A stretch of DNA of 64,000 nucleotides from Bryum argenteum (Eukaryota; Streptophyta; Bryopsida; Bryales; Bryaceae). Location: the NCBI GenBank assembly GCA_037043015.1, contig CM073326.1, forward strand, positions 18,856,345 to 18,920,344. The letters run 5' to 3'. The notes under the pieces are model-generated. The model was not told where the DNA came from. It saw only the letters and a list, made by a program, of their open reading frames with translations, and searched no databases. Both the position numbers and the translations under genes were made by a program. Of this stretch, positions 15,791 through 53,800 are shown in pieces; positions within the stretch are counted from its first letter, which is position 1; each line of letters begins with the position of its first letter.

Positions 15791-15800
15791 CCCCCCCTCG
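15791..15800 (-). other. Polypurine tract
   Basis: On the minus strand this reads CGAGGGGGGG immediately before the 3' LTR. This is the expected primer site for plus-strand DNA synthesis. Confidence 0.75.
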
Positions 15801-15837
15801 CTCAGATTGCCAGGGTTTGATGACTTTGTAGCTGGCT

Positions 15838-16530: not shown

Positions 16531-16556
16531 CTCTTATCAATGAACTGCCTTCGAGA

Positions 16557-19460: not shown

Positions 19461-20968
19461 GGTGTCCTTGATTGTTTGCCTTTGCAGCAGGAAGAGCAAA
19501 AAGGCAGCCGTGCTGATAGCGACGGTAAGCCTCCAACCTTCTTGTGATTTCGCATAAAAGAGAGAACTTTGTAGCTGGCATGAGCAAATCGATGATGCCA
19601 AAGAAGGGTGAGAGATTCTGTGGAACTTACTTCGATGTTGTTGATTGATAGATTTGGCGGTCGGAATTTGTATAGGCCATTCCCTGTGTCTCGCCTTCCA
19701 GTGGTGATGACTTGATGGTCTGCTGGAGAAGGAAAATTCCGCAGTATCCAGCATCGCTTAGAGTCAAAGAGAATCTTGGGGTGATCCTTGGCATCAGCTA
19801 TCGAACCAACAGAAAGAAGGTTCTTTGTAATACCCGGAACATAAAGAACATTATCGAATTGTATTCCTCCAGAAGGTGTGAGAACTTCCACTTTGCCCTT
19901 TCCAGCAACATTCAGCATGTCTCCTCCTGCAGTGCTGATTTTGGATCGGCTGTTTGCTTCTAGATTGCTCAGAAGGCTTTTGCGTCCAGTTACATGTTTG
20001 GACGCGCCACTGTCTATGAACCACTCACTATTGCTATTTTCAGCTATATTTAGCTCTGAGAGGTTAACTGCTAGATCAGTGACAGACTCAACGAATTCTT
20101 CTTCTTCACTACTGTTCGATCCCATTTCAAAGTTGTCTACAATATTGATAGTGGTTGTCTTCTCCAGCCGTTTTGCTTTGCGGATCTTCACTTCTGCTGC
20201 AAGTACGGGACAGTTCCTCATCCAATGATCTTTGGATCCACAGAAATGACACTCACTTGAACTGTTTTTCTTTTGCTTCTGACGGGAGTCGCTAGATCCG
20301 GAGCCGGAGCCGGAGCTCTTTCTTCCTCCAATGTTCTTCTTGTTGTTGATCAGTAATGCCTCCTGATCACTTCGCTTGCTCCCTCGGATCTCTCTGCGGA
20401 TGTCGTCTTGCAGCAGAATAACGGTGAGTTCAGCGACAAAGGGTAGCGCCGAGTTGTACATCACTGAATTCACAAGTCCTTCGTAACTTTCAGGTAATGC
20501 CATGAGAATGTGTTCGACAGCTTCAGCATCGTTGATGGTCTCCCCGATACAAGCAAACTCGTTAATGAGTTCCTTAACTTGCTGCAGGAATTTGGGAAGC
20601 GATGCACCCTCGTCCATTTTCAGGTTCGTGAGCTTTCGTCGGAGCAGTAGCTTCCTGGAGTTCGTTCCTCCAGTATAAAGATTCTTCAATACCTTCCAGC
20701 ATTCATCAGGTTCCTTGATGTTGGCGATGTACGGTATGACATTATCCTTGACGGATAATGCGATCATTGTCAACGCTCGGTTCTTCAGAGCCTGCAGAGC
20801 ATCTAGATCGGCCTGAGCAGTCGGAGCTACGGTCCCCGCTGGCGGATCGACTACTCTCCATGTATCATCTCTGGCCATTAAGTTGTGAATCTTGAAACTC
20901 AAGACACTAAAGTTTGTGATCCCCTCTAGCTTGCTTGCTTCACTCATGAACATATCCCTGGAAGCCAT
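19373..20968 (-). CDS. Copia gag, protease and start of integrase
   Basis: I take MASRDMFMSEASKLEG at 20968 as the gag start; the frame is open to 21067. The UBN2/gag region is followed by a zinc knuckle CHFCGSKDHWMRNC near 20,240. The aspartic protease motif WFIDSGASKHVTG is near 20,010. The integrase zinc region includes LLWHHRFAHASY and CSSCCKGKQ near 19,480. The frame then closes at 19373, while pol continues in another frame. A single indel at about 19,400-19,490 explains this; programmed frameshifting is not usual in plant Copia. Confidence 0.88.
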   Translation of the reverse strand: MASRDMFMSEASKLEGITNFSVLSFKIHNLMARDDTWRVVDPPAGTVAPTAQADLDALQALKNRALTMIALSVKDNVIPYIANIKEPDECWKVLKNLYTGGTNSRKLLLRRKLTNLKMDEGASLPKFLQQVKELINEFACIGETINDAEAVEHILMALPESYEGLVNSVMYNSALPFVAELTVILLQDDIRREIRGSKRSDQEALLINNKKNIGGRKSSGSGSGSSDSRQKQKKNSSSECHFCGSKDHWMRNCPVLAAEVKIRKAKRLEKTTTINIVDNFEMGSNSSEEEEFVESVTDLAVNLSELNIAENSNSEWFIDSGASKHVTGRKSLLSNLEANSRSKISTAGGDMLNVAGKGKVEVLTPSGGIQFDNVLYVPGITKNLLSVGSIADAKDHPKILFDSKRCWILRNFPSPADHQVITTGRRDTGNGLYKFRPPNLSINNIEVSSTESLTLLWHHRFAHASYKVLSFMRNHKKVGGLPSLSARLPFCSSCCKGKQSRTPKPQTQQTTTCRALTRTSSKDNPTRDSQR

Positions 20969-21090
20969 TCTGATGCAGGGAAAAATGTGATCTGTTACAG
21001 CTGTCAAATGAAGGCAAGTAACTCGGTTCCTGCTAGAGACTTGAAGGCAGCAAGACTCTCTATGCACAGACTAACAGTTACAAGCGTACC

Positions 21091-21103
21091 CGCTCTGATA
21101 CCA
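21091..21103 (-). other. Primer-binding site
   Basis: The minus strand reads TGGTATCAGAGCG directly after the 5' LTR, matching the 3' end of initiator tRNA-Met as in most plant Copia elements. Confidence 0.9.
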
Positions 21104-21435
21104 TGTAAGCGATCGCGGACAGAGTTGACATGGTGAAAACAAATGGTTTCATTAGTTTCACAGGGGAGTATATATACAATCAGAGTGGCGCACTCAGCAG
21201 GCTTTCTCCAATAGTACTTACTATTAAGGTCTACCCAACTATCTACCACGATCTGACTAAACTATTTAGACTGCTGCTAATAGAGGGTTAAAGCCTGTTA
21301 CAGCCGTCCAGCCAGCCACCTGAACTAGAGCACCCTAAGACCATTCGGCTTACTGGGTCACGTTTGCCAACTAGGCCGAGCTGGGTCACCAGGAATGACA
21401 CCTGGATACCACCTGGATGTTCCATGTTGTCAACA
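21104..21435 (-). repeat. 5' LTR of the copia element
   Basis: 332 bp, upstream in element orientation. It is followed by the AGTGC duplication and then by the resumed host exon. Confidence 0.95.
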
Positions 21436-31844: not shown

Positions 31845-33484
31845 ATGGCACCTCAAAGTCAATGGAGTGAGCACGGGTGGATGATATTGGCTCCCAATAA
31901 GGACCAAGCTCGATTATGGATTTCAGACTACCCGTTGGTACGGGGTCAGGAAATTTGTGCAATCGGCAAGGACGTCGGGCAGATTGAACAAATTGTAGCA
32001 ATTCCAGAGGGGTTGGTTCAAGTGAAAGTCCGAACTCGTGCACATGTAGCGACCCTGTACAAGATTGAGAAGGGGAATATGTTGGCAGAAATTCCCAATT
32101 TGTTGTTTGAAGCTGCAAAACCGCTCCGAACATTGCGCTCTTTAGCATCTTTTTGGAAAGGTTTTGAGAAGATGTGAGGATGGAACATCTCACGCCATTG
32201 TGAAAGCTAGGCAATGCAATCCTCAGGAGGTTTTAGAAATGAGAAATCGGTATATTCAAGAGAGAAGGGATATAATCGAGCAGCAAGAACGAGCTAATGT
32301 AGCAGATTTCATAGTGTCAGGAGCGGCATCACATGGACCTCACACTAGTCCTGATCGATCATATGCAGATGTGGTCAGTAATAGAGCAAGGGATGATATT
32401 CCATCACAAACAGAGCATGTCACACATCCGGTCCTGCAGACAGAGCCAGTAGACGCACCTTCTTCACAAACACAACCTCCAAGTGCGACAAGACGAACAC
32501 CTACACAGAGGGCTACTGAAGTAGGTCCGTCTACTAGCGTGAGGAGGGCGAGAAGTGCAGCACATGCTTCTACTGAAAGTCCAGCATCCACATCACGTGT
32601 ACCTAATGTTGCAGTATCGAGGGGATACAGTTCAGGTGGAGGAGGAATATCACGAGGGCGACCTGAAAGTTCTGAAATTGGTACACATGGTGGAGCTCCA
32701 GTTAGAGCAGAAGTTCGAAGTGATCATAATATTACTACTCATACGAGTATTAATATTTCAAGGAGTGGAAGACTAGCTACATCAGTAGCACCAACTCAGA
32801 CTGGCAGCGGATCGACTAGAGGACGTGGAAGAAGACCATCCATATCAAGAGCTCCACAAACTCAAACACCTGCAGCTAGAGTGCAAGCACGCGTTGTACA
32901 ACAAAACACAGCAATAAGGGAAAATCCCAGAGCAGAGCAAGAGGGCGGGGGATCAGAAGATTTGGACAACCCTTCATCCGATGAAGAAGAACCAAGAGAA
33001 GTGGAGAAAAATACTAAAGGCCCTATAGTTGCATTTCCAACAGAGGAGGAATTTAAAGCTGGATATGTGTGGGGATGGAGGCGGTGTTTAAGATTCGCAC
33101 GGAGAATGTACGACGTGCAGTTAGTGCAGAAACTAACCATCGGGCATTGTCAAAGAAGCGTGTGGCTGAGATATATGAGCGGCTACGGGGAGATGATGAG
33201 GATCTCGTGTCCCCCATTACACTTTGGCCAGTTGCATTTCTTGAAAAGAGAGTGGATGGTGATGGCAATATAGTAGGAAAAAGAGGTTCCATTCATGAAG
33301 GAGGATACAGTGAACCATTTCAAAACCGTATTTGAGAAGTATCAAAGGCAACAGGACAATACAATGGGCATTTTAAAAACGGAGTGGTTACGAAATGCAA
33401 TAATATGGGAACCGATGGATGGGAAACACATCATAGAAGCATGCAAGTTTGCAAAACAACAATTGGCTGCCCAAAGACTATCTC
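31845..33484 (+). pseudogene. Broken gene with a ParB-like segment, cut by a MULE derivative
   Basis: It starts MAPQSQWSEHGWMILAPNK. The frame changes near 32,165, where CEDGTSHAIVKARQ resumes. A coiled basic stretch and a Ser/Thr/Arg-rich low-complexity region (32,330-33,000) follow. The frame changes again near 33,070 (KIRTENVRRAVSAETNH) and near 33,330 (FEKYQRQQDNTMGILKTEW). The last piece reads WEPMDGKHIIEACKFAKQQ. The DGKHIIEA core has the shape of the ParB/sulfiredoxin motif (D/E-G-x-H/R-x-x-x-A); this is an inference from one short motif. The reading is lost where the 588-bp element begins at 33,485. The upstream AT-rich leader starts near 30,950. Confidence 0.5.
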
Positions 33485-34072
33485 GGACGTTGCTACCGTG
33501 TGAGCGTTGAGCGGTGAGCGGTGAGCGGTGAGCGGTAAGTTTTCAAATTTTTAGGACCGAGTTTGTATTTTTAGCAAAAAAAAATCTAAAAATAGATAAA
33601 TTTTTGGTATTACAGAATCATTTTTGAATATTCACAGGAATATTCGAATATTCTTGACTTATTACCGTGGATTTATTGACCCAAACCCGTGGAAATAAGG
33701 CTTACATTCTCTGAATTAGGTTGGATTTGATCTACAAAACTCGACAGTAAATCACACTTTGAAAATGACAAGACGTTCCCAAGGTAATATTTCTAAGTGA
33801 ATAGTACTCCAAGTTAGACAAATTGGCAAGGTTTGTTGTACATGTAGGTATTGATATAATTAATTTTAATAAGTTGTGAAACAATATCACATACAATGTG
33901 GAGCACCTAATCATAGGACTAACATATAGCGTATGTAGATGCGGAGATTCAATCCAAACTAATCTGTAGCATGGTCTAGGATTCATGGTCTAGCATCCAA
34001 AAAGTTTCGAAAAATTTGCTCACCGCTGGTTTAAAATCTGCTCATCGCTCACTGCTCGCACAACTGCAATCC
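33485..34072. mobile_element. 588-bp non-autonomous MULE derivative
   Basis: The left end GGACGTTGCTACCGTGTGAG is followed by GAGCGGT heptamers. The first approx. 490 bases match the left end of the 14.2-kb element (36,998 onward) through GCATGGTCTAGGATTC. The last approx. 100 bases are a right end with inverted heptamers (CTCACCGCT, CTCATCGCTCACTGCTCGCA) ending GCAATCC. It is thus an internal-deletion copy. No clean target duplication is left. Confidence 0.8.
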
Positions 34073-36986: not shown

Positions 36987-36997
36987 CATCTGCTAAG
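36987..36997. repeat. Target-site duplication, left copy
   Basis: CATCTGCTAAG, repeated exactly at 51,222-51,232. Confidence 0.9.
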
Positions 36998-37009
36998 GGA
37001 CGTTGCTAC

Positions 37010-37052
37010 CGTGTGAGCGTTGAGCGTTGAGCGGTGAGCGGTGAGCGGTAAG
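37010..37052. repeat. Left terminal heptamer repeats
   Basis: GAGCGTT and GAGCGGT units repeated head to tail (about five) at the left end; the mirror set is at about 51,167-51,210. Confidence 0.85.
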
Positions 37053-37458
37053 GTTTTGAATTTTTAGTGGGGAGTTTGTATTTTAGCAAAAATATTTCTA
37101 AAAATAGTTTTTTCAAAAAAAATTGAGAATAATTTTCGAATATTCTCAAGAATATTTGAATATTCTAGACTTATAACTGTGGATTTAGTGACCCAAACCC
37201 GTGGAAATAAGGCTGAAATTCCCTGAATTTTGTGAGACTTGAGCGGCAAATCACAAATTTTTAAATGTTAAGAGGTTTCTAAGGTAATATTTCTAAGTGA
37301 GTAGTACTTTGAGTTAGACAAATTGGCAAGGTTTGCTGTACATGTATGTAATGGTATAATAAGTTTTAGTAAGATTTGAAAAAATATCACATGTAGTGTG
37401 GAGCACCCAATCGTAATAGTAACATATAGCGTACGTAGATGAGGAGATATAAGGCATT

Positions 37459-40400
37459 CTAATCTGTAGCATGGTCTAGGATTCCTCCCTCCAGAATCTT
37501 CTTCACCTCATTGAAACTAAGAGTGGCCGCGTGGATGAAGAGGTCTGCATCCGGATCAAATTTGCAAACCAATACCGTGATGTAGTATAGGTGCTTGCAA
37601 GGTCGGTATGGATCTCTCCGTCCTAACGAAGAGATTGTTTTCTTGAACACTGGGCATGAGCAATCCGGGAATTTACTAATTGATAGTCTATAAACTGCAT
37701 CCGAATCCGACTCCAAGTCTACGATACACCCAAAACCTGGCTCCTGCGGGATCATGGTTACCTTCAGAATTTTGGCCCGCATTGAGGTGGCAGACTCAAT
37801 ATTCTTCATGTGCTTTGAAGTCATCGCTGCAATGCGTTTCATGTTCTTCGATCTTCTTGACCTCGGGAACACGTCCGGCTTCTCCGGGACAAGAATATGG
37901 GACAAGTTTCTTGGTGGGGCAGCATTATTGAAAGTACGGTTCGTAGGAAGTCGTTTTCTTTTTGTGGTAGTCGAAAGCCCGCATTCTCCAACGCCTCCAT
38001 TTCATCTCGTGTGAGGTTAGTCCCTATCTTAATGTGCCATATTGAAGGAATAGGGGTCTATCCTCGCTTTGAGAGAATGGCTCAATCCACTTGCGACGAT
38101 GACCCTTCACTTTTTGTCAATATCATCCGCACAAAAAAAAACTCGATCAATTTTTCTTGGCCCCTCTTGAGGGCGTTGCCATACTCCGGTGTAAGTTTGA
38201 GCCGCGGTCGCCTTCCCCTTCGAATAATTCGTGAGTCACATCTTTTTTTTTACTCTTTCGCATGATACCCCAACAAGCCTTGGCGTAATTCTCCTCAAAC
38301 GGGCAATGTGCCACAACCTTTCGTCAACTTTAGTCTCCCGAAGCAGCGGTCACACGTTCAATACTAGGTCCAAGCAAAAGTGGATGGAAATGTCGGTGGC
38401 TCCTCAACTTCATCCTCTTCATGGATAGTACTGATTTTCAGCCAAGGCTCGGTAACCCTTCTCCCAATTCGGGGACGTGAGTAGCTCACGGTGTCAGTCT
38501 GTCTGCGTTTCATCATCGGCCCAATCGGAACATCGCCCTTACGTTTCTTTGATCCGAACACCTCGCCCCCTCAAGGTGGGCGTCTCGGTACAAATCTTCT
38601 CGGCTCCCGGATAGTCGACACCGCTTTGTGAGGCCTCGATGGATCGCCGATTCGTAAAGCTTTATGGGCAAAGACGAAGTAACAGATTCTTGAGATGTTG
38701 GTCCACTACCACCCTTGCCACCTCCGTTGAAGTCGTGGTAACCGACAACTTGGAGGAAAGCACGAACATAATCATCAACGGTACCGCAACGCATCAAGTC
38801 CCCACCCTTGTTGCCGGACGCTTGCAACCATTTGTTATGGATAGATTCCGCAAGGTTACATGAAGGCATCTCCATGACTCTTCTGCCGAATATTTATTTT
38901 CCTGTAATGTGCAAAGACATTTAACTTTGTAACAAAAAAACTTGGTCAAGATATCCAGAGTTGTTAGACTTTCGTCACCGAAAGGCTGATCTAAAAATAG
39001 ATTTTTTAAAAGTTTAAATATTTTAAAATGTTGTTACAGTAATCGTAAAAATAAATACTCTATGATAAAAAAGTAAATAAAATTTGCGGATTTCCATGAC
39101 ATAAACGCACGTGAACATAATTGTATAGTGGCTGCGGACTCACTAGTTCCATGAAGCCACCCCATTGTCTGTATCGGAAGTGCCAGAATGCCAGCCAGTG
39201 TTCAAGGTGACCTAATCCAACTTCCGAGGTGGCCTGCGCCGACGCCCACCACGCTCGGATCGCCCAGTATCTTGTCTCCGCCTCAGCCATGGTGCGTGCA
39301 TCCTTGTATTGCTTACAAAGATGTCGATGTTGATCTTGCAGCTCGTGCACGATGTATTGTTTGGTGTGTTTCTCTAGGGATTGCGTCCAATGGAAGTAGC
39401 AAGTTCGTTCGCGGCCTTCCATAGGGACTTTAGGGTCACCGGAGCCGTAAATGATCCGCACAGCGTTCAGCTTGGCTTCACATGACCGTCGGCCATGAAC
39501 CCTTGAAACTCCGGCGCTTCCACCCCGTTCCCTCGCCATGACGTGGTTTAGGTTCTTCCGGAAGACGATTTGAGCTTCTCCGTCTTGATCGGGAAATCAC
39601 AAAGCATGCAATAGTTAGAATGCGGCATTTTTTGAGTCATAAACGTGGCACGCCATGGTGGTCCGATTCTTGACACGCTTGACGTGGTCGAACATTAACC
39701 ACGCGTGGGACGGTGTCGCCCCGGATCGTGATACGACGAACAAGGTCAACACCGCTTCCGGGGCCGACCTCGGACATCTTGAAAATGAAAACTTTGTCAC
39801 CTTCATCTCCTTGGCCCGGGAACTGGTTACGTTGGATGTAAGCCCAGTTGCTGAGGCCTCGAAGTTTGGTGATCCCATCGAGGACACCGTATCTGCGCAA
39901 GTGCTTAAAAGTGGTAATACGATTCCTGACGCTGGGAGAGTTCAACTCTTTACATTGATCGAAGATAGGTTCTAGCTCCTGGAGGGTGAGCTTGGAGGTT
40001 ACAGGGTCACCTTCTTCACGGAGAAGTAAGTTTCCGAGTAAGTCCTTGCTAGCCTCCATGACTATTTTGGACGTTGTAGCTTGTGGGTTACGTTCTACGT
40101 GCTCCTCTATTAACTCATCAATTATTTTACGTGCACATCTGTAATCTCCGACTTTGACAGGATGTTCGTGGGTACCGATATGCACACACGCCCGCTCTTG
40201 ACTCTCATCTCCAAATATGTAGAATATTTTAGAAGGGCATACAGCAACACAAACGGGAGGTTCTTTGCAGATCTTACAGACTAGTGTTGAGGAAGGAGGA
40301 GGCGCGTGGCCGATCGGGAAGGGGTCCTTAGTAAAGCCCTCGAACTCCACCTCATTCACCTCTGCTCTGCGGTCAGGCCGTAGTAAGTAGCCGCAATTCC

Positions 40401-41271
40401 CATTGTGGCATTGAAGATGACCAACACAATTAGAGTAGCGGAAAGACAAACCGAGGTTGTTACTAATGTTAGTAGTCATTGTCCTGGTCCACACATGACC
40501 GTCGTATCTTTTGTCCATCCCTTCCATAGATTTGGCTACCTTGACAGCAAGAGTGTGGTTGGTACAACGGGAGGGAGAACATAGAGGACATCACCGTTGA
40601 AAGTGGGAGGCAGGAAAGAGACGTTGTGAGTACGAATGGAATGGAAATCTATTTTTTTGAGGATAGTTTTGTTGCGAGACATACTACCAAGTCTACGAAG
40701 AGAGGAAAGAATGTTTTTGGTTTTTACGACTTTGGACGCGGGAAGAGGAACGGGGGTGGTTCTGCGACTGCGTTCAGAACCAGACGAGGGTGGATGCAGA
40801 TTCGATGATAGTCGACGGGACTGCATGGACGCTTTTCTTTCATCGTCGGATGAATCAGAAATATCGATTCGGACTTCGAGTCCGGGTTCGACCTTGACAC
40901 GAGCAAGAACTGGAACAACTGTGGAGATGGTAGAAGAACTACGAGGAGTGAGGAGGACGGTGGAGGCGTTCATGACAGATTCTGTCATGCCGAACAGTCG
41001 ATACTGTCCGGGCTGTAGCTTATATATTCTACAATTACTGTCTAGGTCGACTGGTTCGACAAGCACAGAGTACTGGACAAGATTAGTGTTTGGATCCATG
41101 ACATGTTTCTCTAACCAAAGAGATGACTCATCAAAACCGAAACGAATTGCTAGCCAAGACGGAGTGACTTCAGCCACTCCGTCCACCCCCGGAGGAATGC
41201 AGATGGGAGGACTTAAGTCTTCAGACCTAATGGCAATGACGTCTGCCGCGGGAGGTAAGGGAGTAGAGGAT
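37459..41271 (-). pseudogene. MULE-type transposase of the 14.2-kb element, decayed
   Basis: It is homologous throughout to the intact gene at 54,882-58,591. Segments: 41271-40536 (MASSTPLPPAADVIAI..., with VKVEPG and IDISDSSDDE); 40527-39637 (MEGMDKRYDGHVWTRTM, zinc-finger cysteines, MSEVGPGSGVDLVRR); 39539-39060 (VRIIYGSGDPKVPMEGRER, TCYFHWTQSLEKH, AEAETRYWAI); 38875-38364 (MPSCNLAESIHNKW...); 37905-37459 (SWIM finger). Several frame breaks separate them and the first catalytic Asp region is damaged. The C-terminal SWIM motif is complete here: DCSCPVF with a downstream RPCKHLYYI (CxC...CxH). The divergent partner genes start upstream of its ATG. Confidence 0.82.
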
Positions 41272-41639
41272 GCCATGATAGACGTAGGGGAAGAAGACAA
41301 CATCAACAAGTGTGCGGAGAAAGAGAGTCTCAGGTGCGTTTCGGATGTTCAAATATGAGACATTGGTGTACGGTGTTTGCGTACGTATTGAATACATATC
41401 AAACGTTATTTCTTATAATAAAAAGTCCAGATATCGGATACTCTTAATCGTGAGCATGATGATTTTAAAGCACTTTACTTAAAATACTTAAATAATATGA
41501 ACTGAGAAAACTGCATTAAGTACAAACGATTAAAAATATTGGATTCCACGATTAAAAAAGTATGGGTAGACGGTAAAGTGGCGGCGGCAGTCATTGTCAA
41601 AGGTTTAGTTGGATAATAGATGCGGTCAGAAGTTAGCTT

Positions 41640-42530
41640 ATTTTGAATTGTCAGACACCATGATGGCGGGAATTAGGGAATACGCGTTGGGTGATTAGGG
41701 TATCGTAGCCGCATGGAGCAACTTATATAATGGAGTTGAGAATTAGGGTTCGACAACTTCATATGCATAGAGAAGTTTTGGACTCGGTATGTGAGACGAG
41801 TGATAAGTTATCTCTCATTGCAAAGATGGATGAAATCGCTAGCGGTAGTGATAGAGGAAAGGAAATAGGTCGAGAGAAAGAAGAAGCGGAGGGGTGGTAC
41901 GAAGTTCACTAACTCTAAAGCACGAGGCGTAGTGCTATGCGGAAGCGTGATGAAAGAAGCTCAGCGGCGATGATCGGGAGCCGACGGGTACGATTTCATC
42001 GATCGACGATGATGTGCTACCGCCATTCGGGCGGACTATCAAGATGCGCTCGCTCAACCTCGATGTTGTTCCCAGAGTGTGGGGACGGACGAAGGTGAAG
42101 AAGAGGAGGACGATGGGCGAGCAGCGAGCGGTTCAAGACGTCTCTCGATACTCTTTGCGTGGATGGGCATGACGATGGAGGTGTGGAATCTACGCATGAG
42201 GTACTAAAGTTTTCTATGATACAATTATGTAAATATTTGTAAAGGTCAACATATTCCTAAATACATATATGGATTAATTACAAAATGGGTTGTCTTCGAG
42301 GATCGTGTAGGATTGGAAGAGGTAGACGATGGATCGGGAGATGAAGTAGCATCTTTTGAAGAGAAGAGAGCCACTCAAATCGGTGAGGGAGTCAAGCCAC
42401 TTGTCGCCAGGGACACAAGATGAGGTAGCGGATGGTTTTGAGACAAGCGTCGAAGAAGTAGAGGAGGTACATGATAAACCTTACTTCTTGGTTTCTTGGG
42501 AGGACGTAGGGTCAAGTTAAGTATACGATC
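41640..42530 (+). pseudogene. Remnant of a small acidic gene divergent from the transposase
   Basis: A 60-codon frame (41,730-41,912, MELRIRVRQLHMHREVL) is followed by acidic stretches with possible GT donors near 42,200 and 42,468. Its position, head to head with the transposase, matches the acidic plus-strand gene at 59.5 kb in the second element, but clear homology is not visible. Confidence 0.25.
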
Positions 42531-42888
42531 AACGAGAGTTCTTTCTTCATGATGTAGCGTAGTTCAATTTTGACATGATATAGATACTTGATATATAAGG
42601 ACATAGGATCGAGTAATATATGTCGTAGAAGCGCAAATAATACGTAACAAGCGTAATTCAAATTCACATAACTTGCGTATTCAAATGTATGAGAGATGGA
42701 TGCAAATATTAGGACTTTTCGGAAAAATATTAACGAGTGTCATGATCTCTTGGTGTCATACATTTTATTCATATTTATATTAAGTGTACAACCTAAGTGC
42801 GGTAATAAAAATACAAAGACATTGTGTTTATGAATTCATTGGAGACATAGTGTTGTACTAGAAAATTTTAAAGAGGTATTGTCCCAAG

Positions 42889-43250
42889 GTTATCCGCCCC
42901 ATGTCCGTCCCCATCGTATCCGCCCGATGTCCGTCTTGATGGTATACGCCCGATGTCCGTCTTGGTGGTATCCGCCCATTGACCATCCCCATGATATCCG
43001 CACGATGATCGTCCCCATGTTATCTGCCTGATGTCTGCCCTATGGTATCCGCCCGACGTCCGTCCACATGGTATCCGCCACATGTCCTTCCGAATATATA
43101 CGCCCGATGCGGGTCCCCATCGTATCTGAACGATGTCCGTCCCCATGGTAACCGCCCGATGTCGGATCTTCCATGGTATCCGCCCGATGTCCGCTATTCG
43201 ATGGTACCCGCCCGATGTCCAGTAGGCCATGGTACCCGCCCGAACATCAT
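42889..43250. repeat. 25-30 bp tandem repeat inside the element, about 13 copies
   Basis: Units like GGTATCCGCCCGATGTCCGT recur with substitutions and small length changes. Open frames here on both strands are products of the repeat. Confidence 0.85.
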
Positions 43251-43697
43251 GCTTCCCACCGAGCAGGCCACGCCAGGCTCCGATGATTCCTGCGAGGTCC
43301 CTGTTCGCAGTCCGCAGACTTCTCCACGGCAGCTGTTTCGGCGTAGCTATGGCAGCCTCAGGTCCCCATACATCGCCGCCATTGCTAGAACCTTGCATTA
43401 AATTGTTCCAGCCGATTCGGTTGGGTACGCGAAGTTAACAGCTCGGCAGGATTATATTTCTAGAAAGTGTCAGGTAGTTGAGAAAAAGCCTTGGAGGAGA
43501 AATTGTCCCACTCATAATAGAATCCAGCTTTGTCAGAGAGGTAGCTATATTTAACAATAGCAATTGAGTGGACGTCATCAATCACGATAAGAACAATGAA
43601 CGTTCAGGGCCTCTCTTTCCTTCTGAAGTGAGGGTGTTTCATCAATTTCCAGTTAGGGTTGGAGGAAGGAGTGCGGTAGCGAGAAGTGCAGAGAGGA

Positions 43698-45967
43698 ATG
43701 GCGCGAATGCGTGAACAAGATGAAGTAACGAATCGGCTAGAAGAAGAGCACGTCGAGTTGGATCTGGAAAATGTGAGTACGCAATCGTCAGAGTCCAGCT
43801 TGTTCGCGGAGTTTTACACGGAGTATTACAGATCACATAGTTGTCCATCAAAACGAGATGCAATCAAAACGCGGGCCGAATTGGAAGCTTTCTACTTCAA
43901 CCGCTTGAATGTGAGTATGGAAATCTAGAATCCTTGAAATTGGGTCATTGCCGCTGGCTTGACTTCGAGCTTAGAAGTGCTGGACTGCATTGGACCTTTT
44001 TGCATGAATCGGTTTGCTCCAGGATGATGATCGAGCTGGTAGCAGAGCTTAGATGGTCGGATGTGAAATGAGTGGGAGGGGTGCATGAATTGAATGTTAT
44101 GTGAGAGTGCCCTCCTGATGTTTTTCGGGCGAAGTCAAGCTCTGTTCTTGCCAATGGTTGATTGAATTTGAGCCCTCGAGGCAGTTGTTGGCACGATGGC
44201 ACGCCCAGGAGCACGTCTCAGTAGAGCTGGCTTGACTTCGAGCCTCTCGGGATGCAGCATGTGGAACCAAGGCTGAGCCCTTGAATCCTCTCAGTTATGC
44301 TTGCTCGGACTTGAGCCCCCGGGGGAAGCAGATGTTGGCACGAAGGGGCCCTGCTGTGAGCTTGCTTGGTCCTGGTGATGGCTTTTGCGGGGAAGTGGAG
44401 CGCTGCCTGCCAGCCTTTCGTCCACGCAAGGCTGGGGGAGGCTAGCTCGTTTGTGATTTTCGTTATTGTTTTTTGGCACTTTTGTGAAGTTTGTGCAAAG
44501 ACCTTTGACGGGGAGTTGGTCGTTTTTGGTGAAGAGCCCCGTTGTTCTTCTTCTCGGGCAAAGTCAAGCCCCGTTGTTGAGATTGGTTGATGGAATTCGA
44601 GCCCCGGGCAAAGAATTGTTGGCACGATGGCACGCCCGAGCACCACGTCGCAAAGAGAGAGCTGGCTTGACTTGAGCCCCGGGATGCGGCATGTGGAACC
44701 GAGGCGAGCCCTTGAATCCTCTCGATTATGCTTGCTCGGACTTGAGCCCCGGGAAGCAGATGTTGGCACGAAGGGGCCCCCCGTGAGCTTGCTTGGTCCT
44801 GGTGATGGCTTTTTTGCGGGGAAGTGGTTGCCGCCATGACCTTTTCGTCCACGCAAGGTCGGGGAGGCTAGCTCGTTTGTGATTTTCGTTATTGTTTATT
44901 GGCACTTTTGTGAAGTTTGTGCAAAGACCTTTGACGGGGTTGGTCGTTTTTTGGTGAAGAGCCCCGTGTTGTTCTTCTCGGGCAAAAGTCAAGCCCCGTT
45001 GTTGAGATTGGTTGATGGAATTCGAGCCCCCGGGGGCAAAGAACTGTTGGCACGATGGCACGCCCGAAGACCACGTCGCAAAGAGAGCTGGCTTGACTCG
45101 AGCCTTCGGGATGCAAAGATGTGGAACCAAGGCTGAGCCCTTGAATCCTCTCAGTTATGCTTGCTCGGACTTGAGCCCCCGGGGGAAGCAATGTTGGCAC
45201 GAAGGGGGCCTGCCGTGAGCTTGCTTGGTCCTTGGTGATGGCTTTTGCGGGGAAGTGGAGCGCTGCCTGCCAGCCTTTCGTCCACGCAAGGCTGGGGGAG
45301 GCTACCTCGTTTGTGGTTTTCAATCTTTCAACATTTTCTTTTACTTGATTGAAAGTTAGTGAATTTCGGCTAAGTTGAGGCCTGATCTTGGTTTTCTTTG
45401 TGGAAGTAGTGCTTTGTTTTTTGTTTTTGGGGTTGAAGTGGAGCGTTGTTCTTGGTTTGCTTGGGTCAAGTGTAGCCATCATTTAATTTTTCTAGTTTGA
45501 AATTTCATACTCATTGTTCCATTACATATGACTATTTGGTATATGAAAGTTAATGTTCAATATTGGTGTTCGCTTACTGGGAAATTACTTACCTTTGATT
45601 TTTTGAGGTTTTGCAGGATCCGTTGAAGCGACAGAAAGTTCATCGTGAGGAGGATTCTGATGCTGAGAGCGATTTGTCAACTTTGAGAGATCATGTCATG
45701 GCTGTAGTAGAGTCTCGTCGTTTAGTGATACCTTTGTCTTCTGTACCCGAAACTCCTCCTCCGGCCTCCCCTGTCCGTCTCACTTCACGTGTTGACGTTG
45801 ATCGGGTTGCACGAGCGGTTAACATGCAAATTAACCAAAATGAGGCCAAAGCTAGACGTACTCACGCAAATGCATTAGCAAGAGTTACCCCAAGACGCTC
45901 TCCCGTCTTGCCGCAAAATTGCGCTCAACTCAATTGTATTGTCGATGATTTGATGACTTTATCATGA
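43698..45967 (+). CDS. Two-exon accessory gene of the element, about 186 aa
   Basis: Exon 1 43,698-43,910 (MARMREQDEVTNRLEEEHVE ... ELEAFYFNRLN) ends at GTGAGT. Exon 2 45,617-45,967 follows TTTTGCAG and reads DPLKRQKVHREEDSDAESDL to a TGA after DDLMTLS. Both are phase 0. An in-frame ATG at 43,686 would add four residues. The protein is charged, with an acidic coiled N-terminus and a Pro/Arg-rich C-terminus; no domain recognised. The intron holds three 430-bp repeats. It sits directly 5' of the ParB-methyltransferase gene on the same strand. Confidence 0.5.
44100..45320. repeat. About 430-bp tandem repeat, three copies, in the accessory-gene intron
   Basis: Landmarks GGCTTGACTTCGAGCC-like (44,228; 44,663; 45,090) and GTGAAGTTTGTGCAAAGACC (44,483 and 44,908) recur at 425-435-base spacing. 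Long minus-strand frames here are repeat artefacts. Confidence 0.85.
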
Positions 45968-46274
45968 ACTTAATTATAAAGTCGTTATGTTTCTTATATC
46001 TTATCGCTTTGTTAACTTCACACATTCTTATTTTTTTGCGTGTTGTGTTGTACTTGGTTTCTATAATGCCAGATGAACATAGCTCAAGTCCATACCGATG
46101 AAGATGACAATACCACCCCGCTCTTCTTCTTCCTTCTGCACGACCTCTCTCGTGCGTTAGAGATGAACACGATCGTGAATCTCTCCCAAATGATGGTAAC
46201 CTTTGCAGTGGAGTCCCGGAAGATTGTCCTTCCGAAATTCACCGTCATCCTCAAGCGTTGCAAGAACATGATGG

Positions 46275-46900
46275 ATGGACACTATTTTCGAAGATGAAGA
46301 CACTCCGTTGCCTGGGAGTGTCAATGTTGGAATCGTCCATATGCCAACTCATCTTCAAGACAAAGATCCCGATTGGAGTGCAAATGAAATGAGAATGATT
46401 CACAAAAGTGACTCCATTGCTATCATTAACAGGTTTCGATTCAAACCTGTTAAAAAGTCTCGCATGCTAATTCCTTTGTGTCGTCTCGTATGCTATCCTA
46501 AGGTTCGTCCTATTTCGGAACAAGACGTGAGGAAGTTGGAGAATGAGTTCAACAAAGGCTATCGGGAGGGCGATCGGGTGATGTACGTTTCTCCCTTCGA
46601 TAGGAAAGGGAGAGAGAAGTCAAGTTCTTGACGAAGATGCAAAGTGTGGACAAATCCTCGTGGAAAGTCGCAAATGAAGAGTTCGAGACGATCTTTCAAG
46701 TCTCGATCTCGATCTTCAACACCAGAGTGGCAAGTATTATTATGTGTACGAAGGTAACCACCGGTTACCGCTTGATGCGTCATATTGAAAGGTACCACAA
46801 GATGGATCCTTCTTGGTACATATCAGTTGACTGCATCGTTCTCGATGCTCGTGGAGAAAGCAATCTCCTCCTGGACGCCATGAACGACATAAATTGGTAA
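46275..46900 (+). other. ParB/sulfiredoxin-like N-domain of the cargo gene
   Basis: MLIPLCRLVCYPKVRPISEQ followed by DVRKLENEFNKGYREGDR has the ParB box I layout (I.L..L, vRp, dV..L...f..G). The next part, at 46,731-46,773, reads YYYVYEGNHR, matching the box II core (v.dG.hR). It continues MRHIERYHKM and SVDCIVLDARGESNLLLDAM to NDIN, the usual end of the fold. The three parts lie in different frames and are ordered as in ParB. Confidence 0.7.
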
Positions 46901-49034
46901 GTACTTGTCACATTCATTCTAATTATGTTCTTGTATATTCAACTATGATATATCTGATATCTGATATCGATGTGTAGGTCTACGGAACATGACCATGTTG
47001 AAGACGGTCTCGTGTGCAAAATTACAACGCATGAGAAAATTTGGAAAATCGAAACTTGAGGACTTCAAGGACCTTATCTCCCGGAGGATTACAGAATTTG
47101 CAAGAACGCCAAAGCTAAAAAGAAACTTGGTATCCGGTTACACTTGACGTTTTCGTCAAATTCTTGTATGCGGTAGGTTTATGTTTATGTGCTATATCGT
47201 TATAATTTGCTTTCGATTTTTTGCACCTTTTAACTACGTTATAAATTATTTACAGAGGAGGTTAGCGAAAGCATCCGACGAGGCTGAAGCATCTTACTAC
47301 GCCACTGTTCCGAAGGATAAACAAACAGGGGCGGGAGTTTGAGTGCCATGGACAACGCCATCAAATCAGAAATTAAGTCCATTCGTGGCAAAAATTTCGA
47401 CAAAATGGTCGCTGTCGCCAACAACAAACTTGGGAAAGTATTCCCAAAAGAGGTATTTTTCGCATTCTACTCAAATTCAATATAAGCCTAATCGTCTTTT
47501 TGACCTTTATCACATTCAAACTTTGTCAATCTCCTTCATGCGCAGATATACTCTCATTACAGCAATAACCACAAACCGGATATGACAATTGATCGTTTGC
47601 AAATGGTAGCCACCACGAACGTGCACTTCGATTACAAGGGAAAGTGGCTGCAATGGTGGAACTCATCCTCCGAAGCTCGTCGATCTGTTCACTTTCCAGA
47701 GGACCGGCCAATGAAAGATAAATCATTGCTTGCTTTCCTCCATCGCGCATCACTTTGGGCACATGTAACTTAAATGTATTTTCCGTGTTTTCTATTTTAC
47801 TGGCTTTACAATATTTTAATTTCTAACGAAAATTCTTCTTTTTTCGCCTAGAGCAATCCCTTTCAACTGAATTGCAGAAACTAGCGGAAGATGACAATCT
47901 CAACATTCAATGGAATGATTCCGTCTTAAAACCATCCGAGTACGTTGAGAAGTGGAGGTTGCTTTTATGGGAGAAGGCATTTGGGAACTACCTTTCTCTT
48001 AATGCTAGCCCAAGGTTCATTAAAGGCTCCGATCTTCAAAGGATTGGTGGTGGCAAAGTTACAATAAAACGTCTTTTATTCCGGTAAGTATATCTATTAT
48101 GTTTTCAATGTAACATAATTTTTGTTTATCATTCAATTTCGTCATTCTAATTTCTTCCTTGAATGTAGGTACTTGAAACAAGAGCTTCTTGCGAAAGGAG
48201 CACTAGCTTCTTGGTCCATTCCCGTCGAGTTCGATGACGTCTCGCCGCCAACGATCCCTCCACCTTCTTCTCCGGTGACCAACAGAGGCGGTTTACCACA
48301 ACACACCATCGATCGGTGGTTGGTTCCTTGAGTGCCAGGATAACCGTTCATAAGGAGGAGAAGCATCTTATTCGAAACCTCGGTACAAGCGCCGCCGGCA
48401 CCGCACCTATGGAGATAGACAACGATGACGACGACGAGGACCTCTCCATTTTGCCACCGCACCGCCCTTCTCTCTTCACCTCCTTCTCGCTCAACCGCTC
48501 AAACGTCGGGCCAACAAAAACGACGCAACGTCGTAGCGGAGCCTCGTAGTAGATCTTCAAGAAGAATCCAAGAAATTCCTCCCTCGCAAGAGACATCCAA
48601 GGTCCGAAGAAGCTGATTTGACTCGGGCATCGATGGTGCGACCAACAATGCACGTAGACGCGGTCGACAATTGACTCGACTTTTCGCAGCGCTCTTACAA
48701 ATGCGGTGGTCTCCTCCTCAATCATCACACACCGATCACAACTCCGGAAAGAAGTTCGCTTCACTCCCATTTCTTGAACCAAGTATGTTCTTTGAGTGTT
48801 TGTTGTCGCCGAGATTACAATTTCTCTTCCAATGTACTTGGAAAAAGGGGACATCGGAGCTTCTGTTCAAAAGGCAGCTCATGAAACCAAGGATTGGGAC
48901 ACACAAGTCATGGACATCATCAACCACATCAGAAAGGTATTGTGTCTTAATTCTTTTCTTACATTTTTTTATTTCTTAAATTTTGATGGGACAGATCGCT
49001 TACAACATGTGTCATTTTCTGTGATTTCCAAAGA

Positions 49035-50003
49035 TTGGAAAAGACATGCAAGGAGATGGGTACGAAACACCCCCATCCCGGCATTGATCTCCTCTACGCA
49101 GACGTTCCCGAGAACTTACCCGTACCTGACGTGTCGCCCGCCGAAATCCCGTCATGGAACAAGCGTGAGAAAAGCTACTTCGAGAGTGTGTTCTTTTTTG
49201 CTTTCTACAACTTGACAGACGAGGGTGCGATACTTGTTATGCATCCCAAGGACCGTCGAGTCGAGAAAGCTCTGGATGCCGAGTCAAAGGCTTTCGATTT
49301 CCGAATGGTGCGAGATTGGTGGGGATATAATCCCATGCCAATGGCCTCAACAAACCCACACGTGAAAACGGTGTGGTCTTTATTATTCTGCATTAAAATC
49401 ATCGTCTATGATTATTTACAACGTTTCTTTAAATCTCTCTCATCTATTGAATTTTGCAGACACACAACTTCCACATTAAGGTTTTTGTTTGGAAGTCATT
49501 TGCCACGAGATTCTCCATAAGACAGGTTGCGAAAGAGTACGCAGGTGTGCCTATTCTTCCCGACGAGGAAGACCATGTATTTAATTTTGCGAGCAATGAC
49601 TCCATTCGTAAGAAGGAAGATGGTACTCCGTAGCGTGGCTCGCGAGAGAAGGATCCCTCCTTCATCCAGTGTTTTATTGATTCTCTCACAGACGAGCGGG
49701 GAATCGTCTTTGACTGGAGCCCTAGTACTGGTTAGTTGTTGCTAATACCAACTCTCATTAAACTTATTCAATACTGTAGTTCTGATGTTGGTTGCTGGTA
49801 TGTAGGTGCTTCCGTGATTGCCTGCGCGCGATCGAACCGTCATCTCATTGTTGTTGAAGCTGATGAAGAGATATTTGACGGACTTTTATCGGCATACGTC
49901 GATGGTACCGCTTTTGAGGAAGAAAGCGGCAATTCGGGTCCAGTATATGACTACGATAGTGACACATCTGAACCGCTTCAGAAGAAGCTACGCCCAACAT
50001 TTT
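49035..50003 (+). other. Permuted DNA methyltransferase domain of the cargo gene
   Basis: Motif IV-like GIDLLYADVPENLPV comes first, then ESVFFFAFYNLTDEGAILVM. It continues over introns with THNFHIKVFVWKSFATRF and ends with a motif I-like GIVFDWSPSTGASVIACARS and NRHLIVVEADEEIFDGLL. IV before I is the beta-class order of bacterial N6-adenine and N4-cytosine methyltransferases. The catalytic (D/S)PP(Y/F) is DVPE here and the motif I DPFxGxG is DWSPSTG, so activity is doubtful. TAG at 49,631-49,633 follows DGTP. Confidence 0.7.
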
Positions 50004-51166
50004 GTGCGTACTTATCTCTTACTTTCCTCCCCTTCTATTGTCACCTTCAATTGGTAGAAATTTATTGGTATTGACTTTTCTGTACTTTTAGGATCGCAGG
50101 TTCCAACCAACGTTTGATTGGCGGCGGAAGTCTCTACAGCAGTCCTCCGCAAACTTTCACCCTTCCATCTTATGCGGAGTGGATAGCTTAAGAATTTGTG
50201 GCTGCCCCTTCTCCCGTCTTATCGGACAGTAGTAGACGTCAACGCTTTAACTCGAGAGTGCTTGTGTTTATAGACGATGAGGCTGATCAGTGTGACCAAC
50301 ACTTTAATGGTCGTTTACCATCAGCATCCTAGGTGATTTTATTTTCTTAGTTTGGTTTGGACCATGTAGGGTCATATATTTATAGTTGACCTACGGCATT
50401 GGTCATACGTGTGGTTTTGCTATACCTTTTTTATATATATATATGACGTTTACCTATTACTTATCAACGTTTTGATTTCTTAATTCATGTAAATGTTAAA
50501 CTTTTAAACTCGATGCCAACTAAAAGTTTCTAAACATTTCTTTATTTCGTTTGAATTTTTGAAACTTGCCAATGATGGTAGGGGTTCTAGTCTAGTATTT
50601 GTATAGCTCAGGATAGCTGCAGACGACGCAATGCAACGCTCAAACGAGGCCGAGGAGAATCGAACTCGGACCACTACAATGCCACGTGAAATCATGAATG
50701 TCTTTCTGTTCACCTTTCAAGGAGACATGGAAGGACGACCCGTAGTTATAATTTTCAGATTATATAAACTGAATCATCTGCATATAATTCTAACATGTGA
50801 AAGAGGAAATTGATGACGTCAGCCCTAATTAGTCTCTAAATCCTAAAACAATAAATAAAACTTATTGATTACCGAAATGGCTATCTCAACTTTTGGTTTA
50901 TATTTTGTATTTGATTTAAATTGAATTGGTTACACATGATGATGCGAGCCCATAATTTAATTGACTTTCATTTAAATTTGCAAATGTGGATTAATTATGT
51001 AATATTGTAGGACCCCATTACCATATATCGAAATGGATACAGTACCCTATGTCCACGGTTTTGGGTACTTTTATGCCTAAAAATAACCATTTCAAAATTT
51101 TAAAACCACCTATTCCATGGTAATAGGGCCATTAACTTTTAAAATTTTTATTTCTTACCGCTCGAA

Positions 51167-51221
51167 CTTTACCGCTCACCGCTCACCGCTCACCGCTCAA
51201 CGCTCACACCCGTGGTTTCCC
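51167..51221. repeat. Right terminal heptamer repeats of the 14.2-kb element
   Basis: TACCGCTC, then three CACCGCT units, CAACGCT and CACACCCGTGG: the inverted counterpart of the left end. Confidence 0.88.
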
Positions 51222-51232
51222 CATCTGCTAAG
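51222..51232. repeat. Target-site duplication, right copy
   Basis: CATCTGCTAAG, identical to 36,987-36,997. Confidence 0.9.
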
Positions 51233-53800
51233 TCCCTGATAGTGAGTTTGCTCCCCGTATGTGCTGTCAAGTTCATTTGTTTGTTGGAGATTTTCGGAGA
51301 ATGCTTTTATTCTCTGTATCACTTGCCTGGTGGAATGTGTTTGGCTGCACTCCGAAGCATGTCATGATTTTGAGGTTTGATGAGCCCCTCCTCGGGGGTG
51401 ATGGCCCGTGAGGAAGAGGGAAGCTAGTGACCGCAGTGAAGTTCTGATGCTGGTCTTGGACTCAGACACCGGGGTACTCATGCACTCACGACTCTGTCAT
51501 TGTTGGTCGCTTCTTAATTGCGACGTCGAATGTGTTTGCCGGCATTCCAGAAGAGGTCATGTTCATGGGTTCATCAGTCCCCGTACTGGGAGGCGATGGC
51601 CAGTGAGGGAGAGGAGAGGTAGTCACCCATGTGCAGTTATGTTGCTGGACCTTGGACAAAGGGATGCTACTAACCCCTGTGCATCTTGGTTGCTAGTCAT
51701 TGACTCGGCAATACAGGAGCTTGTGCACCCAAGGGGCGTGGGCTCACTCAATCGGCAGTTATTGTGAATTCAGTGACATATGCCGAGTCCCATATAATCA
51801 GTGTGCTACTGGAATGTGTTGTCAATCTTACTCTTTTTACTTGCGCCCTCGAAAGTGATTCGGTATATTCCAAAAGAGGTCTGATCTTAGGTTCCGCAGA
51901 GTCTCTCATGGGAGGTGAATGTAGGTGAGATCCAGTCCCAGTGACCAGTATGCATTCCAGATGAGTTATCTCATACTTGCGCCGTCGAATGTGATTGCTC
52001 GATTTCCGAAAGAGGGCTTGATATTAGTCTGGTGAGGTGATCTGGGATTGGTTAGTGCCACTCCTTGGAGGTACTGGCCGGCGAAGTGAAGTTCCAGAGA
52101 CCCCTCTGAATCTTGGTTTTTTGTCATCTTGTTTACTTGCGCCGTCGAATGTGTTTTCCAGAATCCTTAAATAGGTCAACATCTTGGGTTAGCGTCGGGT
52201 CCCAGGAGGGGTGGGCTTACTCAATCGGCCATTCCTGTGAAGTGTGTGATACGTGCTGAGTACCACGTTGTTAGTCTGCTTCCTGAACGTGCTGTCAAGA
52301 TCATCTTTTTGTCGTGGAATTTTTTTGTGGTGGATTTTTTACTTGCTCTCTTTCTCCTGCGGCAACGAATGTGTTTGCCTACTGATTGTAAGCAGTCATG
52401 GTCCTAGTCTTTGTAGAGCCCCTCCCCGGATGAGATGGCCAGCGAGGTCCAGTCCTAGTGACCTTTGTGCATTTTGCTGCTTGTCATCTTTTGTACTTGC
52501 GCCGTCGAATGTGATTGACTGCTACCGAAATAGGTCATGATCTTTGGTTTTGTCGAGTCCCTCCTCAAAGGTAATGGCAGGTGAGGAGGAGGGTAGCTAG
52601 TGGTGATGGTCTGGTTCTTTGGTCCTCTTTAACTTGCGGCGCGCCGAATGTGTTTTTTTTTTTGTACTTGGAATCGGTCATGATCTTAGATTTTGTAGAG
52701 CCCTTCCTCGAGGGGGTAGATGGTGATGGTCAAGTTCTTTGGTCCTCTTTAACTTGCGGCGCCAAATGTGTTTTTTGTTTTGGAATCGGTCATGATCTTA
52801 GATTTTGTAGAGCCCTTCCTCGAGGGTATGAGTAGTGATGGTCAAGTTCTTTGGTCCTCTTTAACTTGCGGCGCCGAATGTGTTTGCGTGCATTTTGAAA
52901 TTGCATTGTCAGGTCATGATAGTGGGTATTCACGAGGCCCTCCAGAAGGTCATGGTTGGTGAGCTAGGGGAGCTAGTGACCAATTTGCATTTTGTCTGCT
53001 GGTTTGCTTTTACTTGTGCCATCGAATTTGTTTCCCTCCATTCCGAAATTGCATTCTCAGTTCATGATCTATGATCTTTGGTATTGACAAGGCCCTCCTC
53101 GAAGGTGAAGTTCAGTGAACTTGGGGTAGCTACTGACCCTCCTGCATTTTGATTGCTGGTTTCGTTTAACTTGCGCCGTCGAATATGTTTCCCTGCATTC
53201 CGAAATTGCATTGTCAGGTCATGATAGTGGGTATTCAGGAGTCCCTCCGGAAGGTGATGGTTGGTGAGGTAGGGGGAGCTAGAGACCCCTCTGCTTTTTG
53301 TCTGCTAGTTTGTTTTTACTTGCGCCGACGAATTTGTTTTCCGTGCATTCCGAAATTGCACTGTCAGTTCATGATCTCTGATCTTTGGTATTGACGATGC
53401 CCTCCTCGAAGGTCATGGTCGGTGAGCTAGGGGAGCTCGTGACCCCTCTGCATTTTGTTTGGTGGTTTCCTTTTACTTACGCCGTCGAATTTGTTTCCCT
53501 GCATTCCTCGGTAGTGGCCATTAATTCAGCTTGGCACAAGCTTATTAGCTCTCAAAACTTCTGTGGTTCTTTGGCGTTTCGTGCTTAATAAGATGGCTTC
53601 ACCTAAATTCTTCGATGATCACTCTGAGAATTGGAGTCAACGGGCTGCCCCTCTTCTTGTGAAATGTGTCTAATGACTACCTGTATGTTTGTGCAGATTG
53701 TATTCATGGAGCTGAAGTGGAGCATTGAGAGCGAAACAGATTTTGACACTTGCGGTGTCGAATGTGTTTGCCTGCAGATCAATTAGATTCATGTCTATGT
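51233..53800. repeat. Right part of the split tandem array
   Basis: About 14 units carry GCGCCGTCGAATGTG or close variants, near 51,520, 51,844, 51,979, 52,140, 52,365, 52,499, 52,637, 52,757, 52,868, 53,017, 53,174, 53,325, 53,480 and 53,756. Spacing is mostly 110-160 bases. Units also share GGTCATGATCTT, CCCTCCTCGAAGGT and GGTGAGCTAGGGGAGCTAGT. Units at 52,581-52,860 are the most alike. Confidence 0.85.

Follow-up and report, generated by a model that had tools for sequence, protein, structure and literature searches.

Background

Eukaryotic DNA transposons with an accessory gene that joins a ParB-like domain to an N4/N6 methyltransferase are already in print: the available text of PMC12477816 describes one on the Ectocarpus transposon Sola1-1_Ec32 and cites algal cases, with a function that is proposed only and with active marking of DNA suggested for the algal proteins. 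Here we analyze a gene of this kind from Bryum argenteum. It lies in a stretch of 64,000 nucleotides of the GenBank assembly GCA_037043015.1 (contig CM073326.1, positions 18,856,345 to 18,920,344 of the forward strand; G000:C6:18856345-18920344 in our searches), referred to below as the window, and is carried by a DNA transposon of 14,225 bp (window positions 36998..51222). Complete copies of this transposon show a three-gene layout comprising a transposase-like gene A, a small gene B and gene C, whose product of 1161 residues is our main subject. Going by the available text of PMC12477816, the ParB-methyltransferase accessory gene of transposons is not new as a kind, and gene C is a green-plant variant of it. 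To what is in print, the Bryum transposon contributes a host among the green plants, another type of element, a measurement of purifying selection, a division into two subfamilies and the probable loss of the catalytic motif.

Set beside Sola1-1_Ec32, by description only and within the available text of its source, the Bryum transposon is likewise a large eukaryotic DNA transposon with an accessory gene of about 1100 residues on the strand opposite to the transposase. Sola1-1_Ec32 belongs to the Sola-1 elements, is 21.5 kb long and comes from a brown alga, whereas the element studied here measures 14.2 kb, has a target-site duplication of about 10 bp and heptamer ends, resides in a green plant and has lost motif IV in its gene C. 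ParB-methyltransferase fusions are also documented in phages, according to the available part of PMC12704722, the main text of which contains no word starting with plant, moss or transpos. Among the 934 phage records matching one such ParB-N6_N4 fusion, 295 cover at least 80% of it. Gene C has the same domain order, an N-terminal ParB-like region and a C-terminal PF01555 methyltransferase; the phage fusion that we examined has 419 residues and an intact DPPY motif, whereas gene C has 1161 residues, introns, a long middle region, no DPPY and a ParB match at the level of motifs only.

Two further systems offer points of comparison. In the available text of PMC5735166, the VANC protein of Arabidopsis VANDAL transposons binds to short, tandemly arrayed motifs and causes methylation to be lost, and the tandem-repeat binding sites are located in introns and upstream of genes. 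Like VANC (PMC5735166 and PMC6446971, each as available in part), gene C is a non-transposase gene of a plant DNA transposon with a three-gene layout and non-coding tandem arrays; the function of VANC was established by experiment, whereas that of gene C is predicted from sequence. The N4CMT of bdelloid rotifers resembles gene C in being a bacterial-type amino-methyltransferase in a eukaryote. The accessible part of PMC8885841 presents it as a captured gene with a catalytic SPPY and a chromodomain, which deposits N4-methylcytosine (4mC) at transposons, whereas gene C is transposon-borne and has DVPEN in the corresponding position. In the open literature, with subscription papers mostly outside this scope, we recognized no land-plant transposon gene of the gene C kind.

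Gene C is part of the transposon and under selection

The genome searched comprises 258.8 Mb in 25 contigs; its profile matches include 90 chlorophyll a/b-binding proteins (E <= 0.001) and 17 C5-cytosine methyltransferases. Left ends of the element were sought without regard to gene C, and the best 40 of 711 candidates were scored; they were compared with the best 40 of 472 gene C candidates and with 40 listed copies of gene A. Eighteen left ends, that of the window included, are at least 93% identical, and all 18 have a listed gene C copy downstream in the right orientation, at 7.7-16.7 kb in 15 and at 25-52 kb in three; a listed gene A copy lies about 1.5 kb from the left end in 16 of them. 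As gene C follows every one of these closest left ends, it is part of the element and belongs to the transposon rather than being chance cargo, in agreement with an earlier note on this DNA. Among the remaining 22 left ends (86-89% identity), three are linked within 60 kb to one of the best 40 of the 472 gene C candidates.

Ten further genomic stretches were taken, giving 11 with the window. The eight copies among them that were read end to end all hold gene C, but these regions had been selected by a gene C match. C1_1517, C5_13516 and C5_21703 were not resolved as full-length elements, and the first was still used for gene C. The copies fall into two subfamilies: A, consisting of the window copy, C4_4012, C2_31614, C2_22842 and C5_16881 (94-97% identity to the window), and B, consisting of C1_10100, C3_19391, C1_21509 and C1_1517. 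The three end-to-end B copies match the window at 86-91% in the gene A and gene C blocks and at 75-79% in the gene B block, and differ from it in the array region. In C5_16881 (L047-L048) some 2.5 kb of gene A (window positions 38130-40612) are lost and the gene C region is retained; this is presumably an internally deleted, non-autonomous copy.

In the open copy C3_19391 gene C has 10 exons that encode 1161 residues without a stop, the splice sites being picked by inspection; in eight other aligned copies 70 of 80 acceptors are AG and all 72 donors are GT. Inside the transposon copies it lies on the strand opposite to gene A. The window has transposase-like open reading frames on its minus strand and, on the plus strand, a gene of several exons, so the two opposed genes of the earlier note are confirmed. 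Aligned to C3_19391, exon 1 of the window copy (46073..46896, plus strand) codes for a disordered-looking N-terminus and the ParB-like region (KVRPISEQDVRKLE ... VYEGNHR). Exons 2-6 (46978-47165, 47258-47452, 47546-47764, 47848-48083 and 48169-48936, plus strand) code for a conserved middle and an acidic linker.

With domain borders set manually, omega was obtained from five comparisons of diverged B copies. For the whole gene it is 0.23-0.36; by part it is 0.17-0.25 in the ParB-like region, 0.10-0.18 in the middle, 0.34-0.63 in the C-terminus, 0.42-0.82 in the linker and 0.83-1.81 in the N-terminus, and the methyltransferase gives 0.14, 0.15, 0.26, 0.49 and 0.53. For the pair C3_19391/C1_21509 the values are 0.17 (ParB-like), 0.10 (middle) and 0.14 (methyltransferase), and a one-sided binomial test finds fewer amino-acid changes than neutral in the ParB-like region (p 1.6e-5), the middle (5.8e-12) and the methyltransferase (2e-9; 4e-6 and 0.036 in two further pairs); the corresponding p is 0.42 for the N-terminus and 0.2 for the linker. 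The recent pair C1_10100/C1_21509 is near neutral (0.80 overall, 1.48 in the methyltransferase region), in line with selection acting on active lineages. Gene A shows 0.14-0.25, namely 0.14-0.22 for C3_19391/C1_21509 and 0.22-0.25 for C3_19391/C1_10100. The core domains of gene C are under purifying selection, of a strength similar to that on gene A for the same copy pairs.

We consider it highly likely that gene C is a selected accessory gene of the transposon, and it probably helps the element rather than being present by chance. Capture of host sequence is described for plant Mutator-like elements (MULEs) in the available text of PMC6431247, so a Pack-MULE-like passenger, or an unrelated gene on which the element had landed, has a precedent; a gene that follows 18 of 18 closest left ends, in two subfamilies and under purifying selection, makes such an origin hardly credible. 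Chance cargo is rejected on linkage and selection.

A methyltransferase fold with an altered catalytic motif

On profile evidence, the C-terminal domain of gene C descends from the permuted N6/N4 amino-methyltransferases, which upholds the permuted methyltransferase of the earlier note. Motif IV (LLYADVPEN) precedes motif I (FDWSPSTGAS), and the alignment to the family is colinear. On the plus strand of the window, exon 7 (49034..49370) holds the motif IV region, exon 8 (49460..49730) the middle of the domain up to the first half of motif I (FDWSPSTG), exon 9 (49806..50003) the remainder of motif I (ASVIACARSNRH...VEAD) and exon 10 (50100..50332) the C-terminal tail and stop.

Against PF01555 the region scores E 0.066 and 13.6 bits, under the Pfam cut-off of 26.7, and PHROG methyltransferase families match gene C at E 7.5e-5 and 6.9e-4. 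A tblastn search against 50,697 phage records returned 78 records at E <= 1, and every one of the 20 listed carries an annotation as methylase, methyltransferase or ParB-like nuclease. When the genome was searched with PF01555, 32 matches came up at E <= 10, two of them above the cut-off. One of the two is the paralog L065 (1-1500; G000:C4:20498201-20499700), which is 27% identical to gene C, passes at E 9.8e-8 with 32.7 bits against 26.7, has DTPF as motif IV and occurs in three genomic places that are 98-100% alike; it may represent a second, less altered mobile family. A profile of two gene C copies and L065 aligned to three phage enzymes with an hhalign probability of 97.6 over 198 columns, and the gene C family alone to seven phage enzymes with 44.6 over 62 columns, against a maximum of 20.2 for 60 column-shuffled decoys. 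In the PDB the three-member profile found DpnA (2.2e-5) and CcrM (2e-4); a single methyltransferase sequence retrieved only immunoglobulin-type chains at E 0.8 or worse, and no methyltransferase. NCBIfam offered nothing near its cut-off and PADLOC found nothing, and a peptide-pattern search for viral relatives in IMG/VR matched one stretch and confirmed none.

The 15 best PF01555 matches in the genome all lie more than 20 kb from the 40 listed gene C copies. The genome may therefore harbor further families of methyltransferase-like genes.

In place of [DNS]PP[YFW], motif IV of gene C reads DVPEN. Its codons are kept in 22 of 24 copies, the other two being disrupted; three of the 22 have a change just upstream, and none of these readable copies has an aromatic residue at this place, which is taken by Glu. 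The usual form of motif I is FxGxG, and five of the six proteins compared have SPSTGAS. In the rotifer N4CMT a double change of SPPY to APPA (Ser and Tyr) abolishes activity (PMC8885841, available part). DLPY, another motif IV variant, is found in a phage protein whose annotation is putative DNA restriction methylase, so that a loss of activity is likely rather than proven. The product of gene C can be described as a domain descendant of the beta-class amino-methyltransferases, probably catalytically altered, and on balance it would no longer methylate by the usual chemistry.

In favor of an active amino-methyltransferase that binds and marks its own transposon with 4mC or N6-methyladenine (6mA) are the conserved domain and its permuted motif order, a paralog in the same genome with the more normal DTPF, and the precedent of DLPY in a phage. 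Weighed against the Glu in all 22 readable copies, the divergent motif I and a PF01555 score of 13.6 against 26.7 bits, an active enzyme appears rather unlikely. The earlier suggestion that the gene could mark DNA is not supported, given DVPEN in every readable copy.

The ParB-like region

The ParB assignment in gene C is a motif-level match, to be taken as a lead. Pfam PF02195 has no match to gene C at E <= 10, PF01555 being the sole Pfam family at that threshold; the profile matches to both families that the earlier note had anticipated are therefore present for PF01555 only, and there above the cut-off solely via the paralog L065. A PHROG ParB family matches weakly (E 0.015 over 40 residues). 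In a comparison with ten phage ParB domains by hhalign the region scored 16.0, under the best shuffled decoy at 19.7, although the piece that was aligned is the expected box. The box II arginine, of GxxR type, is present as EGNHR in five of the six proteins compared and reads EGNHH in C1_21509 (by eye). The region retrieved no ParB chain in the PDB, no match among the phages and one weak plasmid match at E ~1, and a genome search with PF02195 gave one weak match, at locus L061, where no gene C-like open reading frame was seen by eye. What the earlier note had called ParB is thus a box-like motif only.

Ends and tandem arrays of the element

The reading of 36998-51222 as a full-length transposon, bounded by ATCTGCTAAG on both sides, is borne out by termini (GGACGTTGCTACCG...GTGGTTTCCCC) common to the eight copies read to both ends; they are near-constant, with small differences in subfamily B. 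The target-site duplicates occupy 36988..36997 and 51223..51232 (plus strand) and are exact repeats of each other. Five heptamer units of the form [GT]TGAGCG stand at the left end (37013..37047, plus strand) and five, inverted, at the right (51173..51207, minus strand), as the earlier note had seen in its matching inverted heptamers; the window has 18 matches to a two-heptamer pattern with at most two mismatches, against 0.14 expected. The 11-bp duplications of that note are exact in the window and in two other copies (C2_31614 and C1_21509), but the remaining five of eight have 10 bp; a script found seven of the duplications, three of 11 bp and four of 10 bp, and the 10 bp of C1_10100 was read by eye from its flanks. 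In the 11-bp cases the extra base coincides with one at the end of the element, so a length of 10 bp is compatible with every copy. MULEs generate target duplications of about 8-11 bp and have terminal inverted repeats, and a duplication of 10-11 bp with inverted ends is found in all eight end-to-end copies, a MULE-like feature.

Two tandem arrays lie inside the element: a 26-bp unit in about 13.7 copies (42883..43243, plus strand) between the divergent genes A and B, and a 426-bp unit in 2.8 copies (44125..45321, plus strand) in the presumed intron of gene B, with more units in C2_31614 and C2_22842.

Frame breaks and the CAG/CTG pattern

Aligned to the open copy C3_19391, gene C of the window has 29 frame-breaking indels and two stops. 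Subfamily A copies have 24-35 such indels and 0-2 stops, and B copies 0-2 indels and 0-3 stops (C3_19391, as the reference, has 0 by definition). The breaks are unevenly placed. Counts at CAG/CTG were made on 15 of the loci L001-L020 (L001 being the window copy), leaving out L004, L006, L010 and L012 as short or rearranged and counting L020 with subfamily B. At sites where CAG/CTG is the majority state, 40% of cells in the 15 A copies differ, against 13% for the next 3-mer; of 840 cells 501 retain the 3-mer, and the changes seen most often are to CGG (59), CGA (43), CG (34) and CA (31). The transposase region repeats this, the share of differing cells being 41% among 13 A copies and 38% among seven others. 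Across copies, CAG/CTG loss tracks CG gain (Spearman -0.93, p 7.6e-7; -0.59, p 0.035 in the transposase region), and the rate of change is alike in exons (270/660) and outside them (95/255). In the right part of gene C, columns no more than two away from a CAG/CTG make up 20% of the total; the 15 copies together show 376 indel events, 215 of them in these columns, and 878 substitutions, 646 of them there. For the window copy the share is 13 indels out of 24. The five B loci show no such excess, with 13.8% at CAG/CTG and 13.2% at the next 3-mer. Other repeats offer few sites: CAG/CTG differs in 1/18 in a long terminal repeat (LTR) pair and 2/8 in a second pair, with five further pairs of tandem or other repeats mixed.

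CAG/CTG is the plant CHG methylation context. The pattern suggests that the frame breaks of window-type copies are in part long-read miscalls at methylated CAG/CTG cytosines, with 4mC and 5-methylcytosine (5mC) not distinguishable; methylation-induced nanopore errors are documented in bacteria, in the available text of PMC11610573. Natural decay of an old pseudogene would be the obvious alternative for a copy with 29 frame-breaking indels and two stops, and the enrichment at CAG/CTG is about threefold, so that 161 of the 376 events (11 of 24 in the window copy) lie farther than two columns from any CAG/CTG. Decay as the sole cause is, however, disfavored by the concentration of differences on CAG/CTG, repeated in the transposase region and including CAG to CG, by the share of indels and substitutions near these sites, by the correlation of CAG/CTG loss with CG gain and by stops that are few relative to indels; we regard it as improbable.

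If miscalling is the right reading, gene C may be less broken than it appears. More generally, frame breaks in long-read plant assemblies could in part be artefacts of methylation, which conceal open transposon genes and also indicate that these are silenced, and CAG/CTG to CG changes could perhaps serve as a methylation fingerprint of single transposon copies from the assembly alone.

A proposed role for gene C

We propose that the gene C protein would bind DNA of the element, with its ParB-like and methyltransferase-fold parts contacting the terminal heptamers or the internal tandem arrays, and that once bound it may aid expression or movement of the element, as VANC does for VANDAL, without methylating DNA. 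A binding rather than a methylating role appears most likely because the catalytic motif is altered to DVPEN while the domains are constrained, and the resemblance to VANDAL is drawn because tandem arrays lie between genes A and B and in the presumed intron of B, in a three-gene layout. For the whole mechanism, a DNA-binding helper in anti-silencing or in transposition, our rough probability is 0.4, which makes it the leading explanation over an active enzyme and a pure transposition factor. A narrower version, in which a bacterial-type methyltransferase turned non-methylating, sequence-specific DNA binder counters silencing of its own family and is an independent counterpart of VANC recognizing the heptamer or the internal arrays, is doubtful.

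Several observations weigh against the binding helper. The ParB-like region has no statistical support, scoring under its decoys, and constraint on the methyltransferase domain fits a working enzyme as well. The methyltransferase omega is higher in the three C1_1517 comparisons (0.26, 0.49 and 0.53). No VANC homology was seen in gene C, where PF01555 is the only Pfam family at E <= 10. Finally, many copies seem to be methylated at present, going by the CAG/CTG pattern, and for these any anti-silencing would be ineffective in the sequenced tissue; if that reading is right, many copies are now silenced, and their methylation speaks against effective evasion of silencing, which the earlier note had also entertained.

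Gene C might instead serve transposition alone, outside any epigenetic process, as a second subunit that would bind the heptamer arrays and bring the ends together or shield them. The arrays at both ends, the position beside the transposase with similar constraint in the C3_19391 comparisons, and the retention of gene C in C5_16881 despite its deletion of about 2.5 kb in gene A are all in keeping with this; on the other hand the large middle region yielded no Pfam domain, and we hold this role to be unlikely. Whichever role applies, gene C is a clear test case of whether proteins of this class write DNA marks or only bind and protect their own transposon.

Genes A and B and the surroundings of the element

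Gene A (37459..41348, minus strand) is transposase-like with several exons, as judged from open reading frames in the window and in less broken copies, and has a SWIM-like CxC...CxH near its C-terminus. SWIM zinc fingers are associated with MULE transposases; here CSCPVF...CKH was read by eye, and the Pfam SWIM match is weak (E 0.62). The MULE-type transposase of the earlier note found no backing from profiles: three gene A pieces have no match to the Pfam MULE transposase model PF10551, the 74 matches of a genome-wide MULE-model search (E <= 10) all lie 36 kb or more from the 40 listed copies of gene A, and a gene A piece had no match among the phage records.

Gene B codes for a small protein. 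The first exon region found (43429..43941, plus strand) is kept between subfamilies and is an open reading frame in copies, with omega 0.36-0.51; the last exon (45618..45967, plus strand; start placed by eye after AG) is weakly constrained, omega for exon 2 being 0.78-1.84.

Near the element, 33484-33984 is a solo left-end fragment of the same transposon family, 81% identical to the window element; a duplication was looked for by eye there and none was seen. Just right of the element, 52599-53507 contains tandem arrays of 112-bp and 157/306-bp units. Farther to the left, 15459-21435 is an LTR retrotransposon-like unit with two 332-bp direct repeats of the TG...CA form that are 99.1% identical, which points to a probably recent insertion, and AGTGC flanks it on both sides, by eye.

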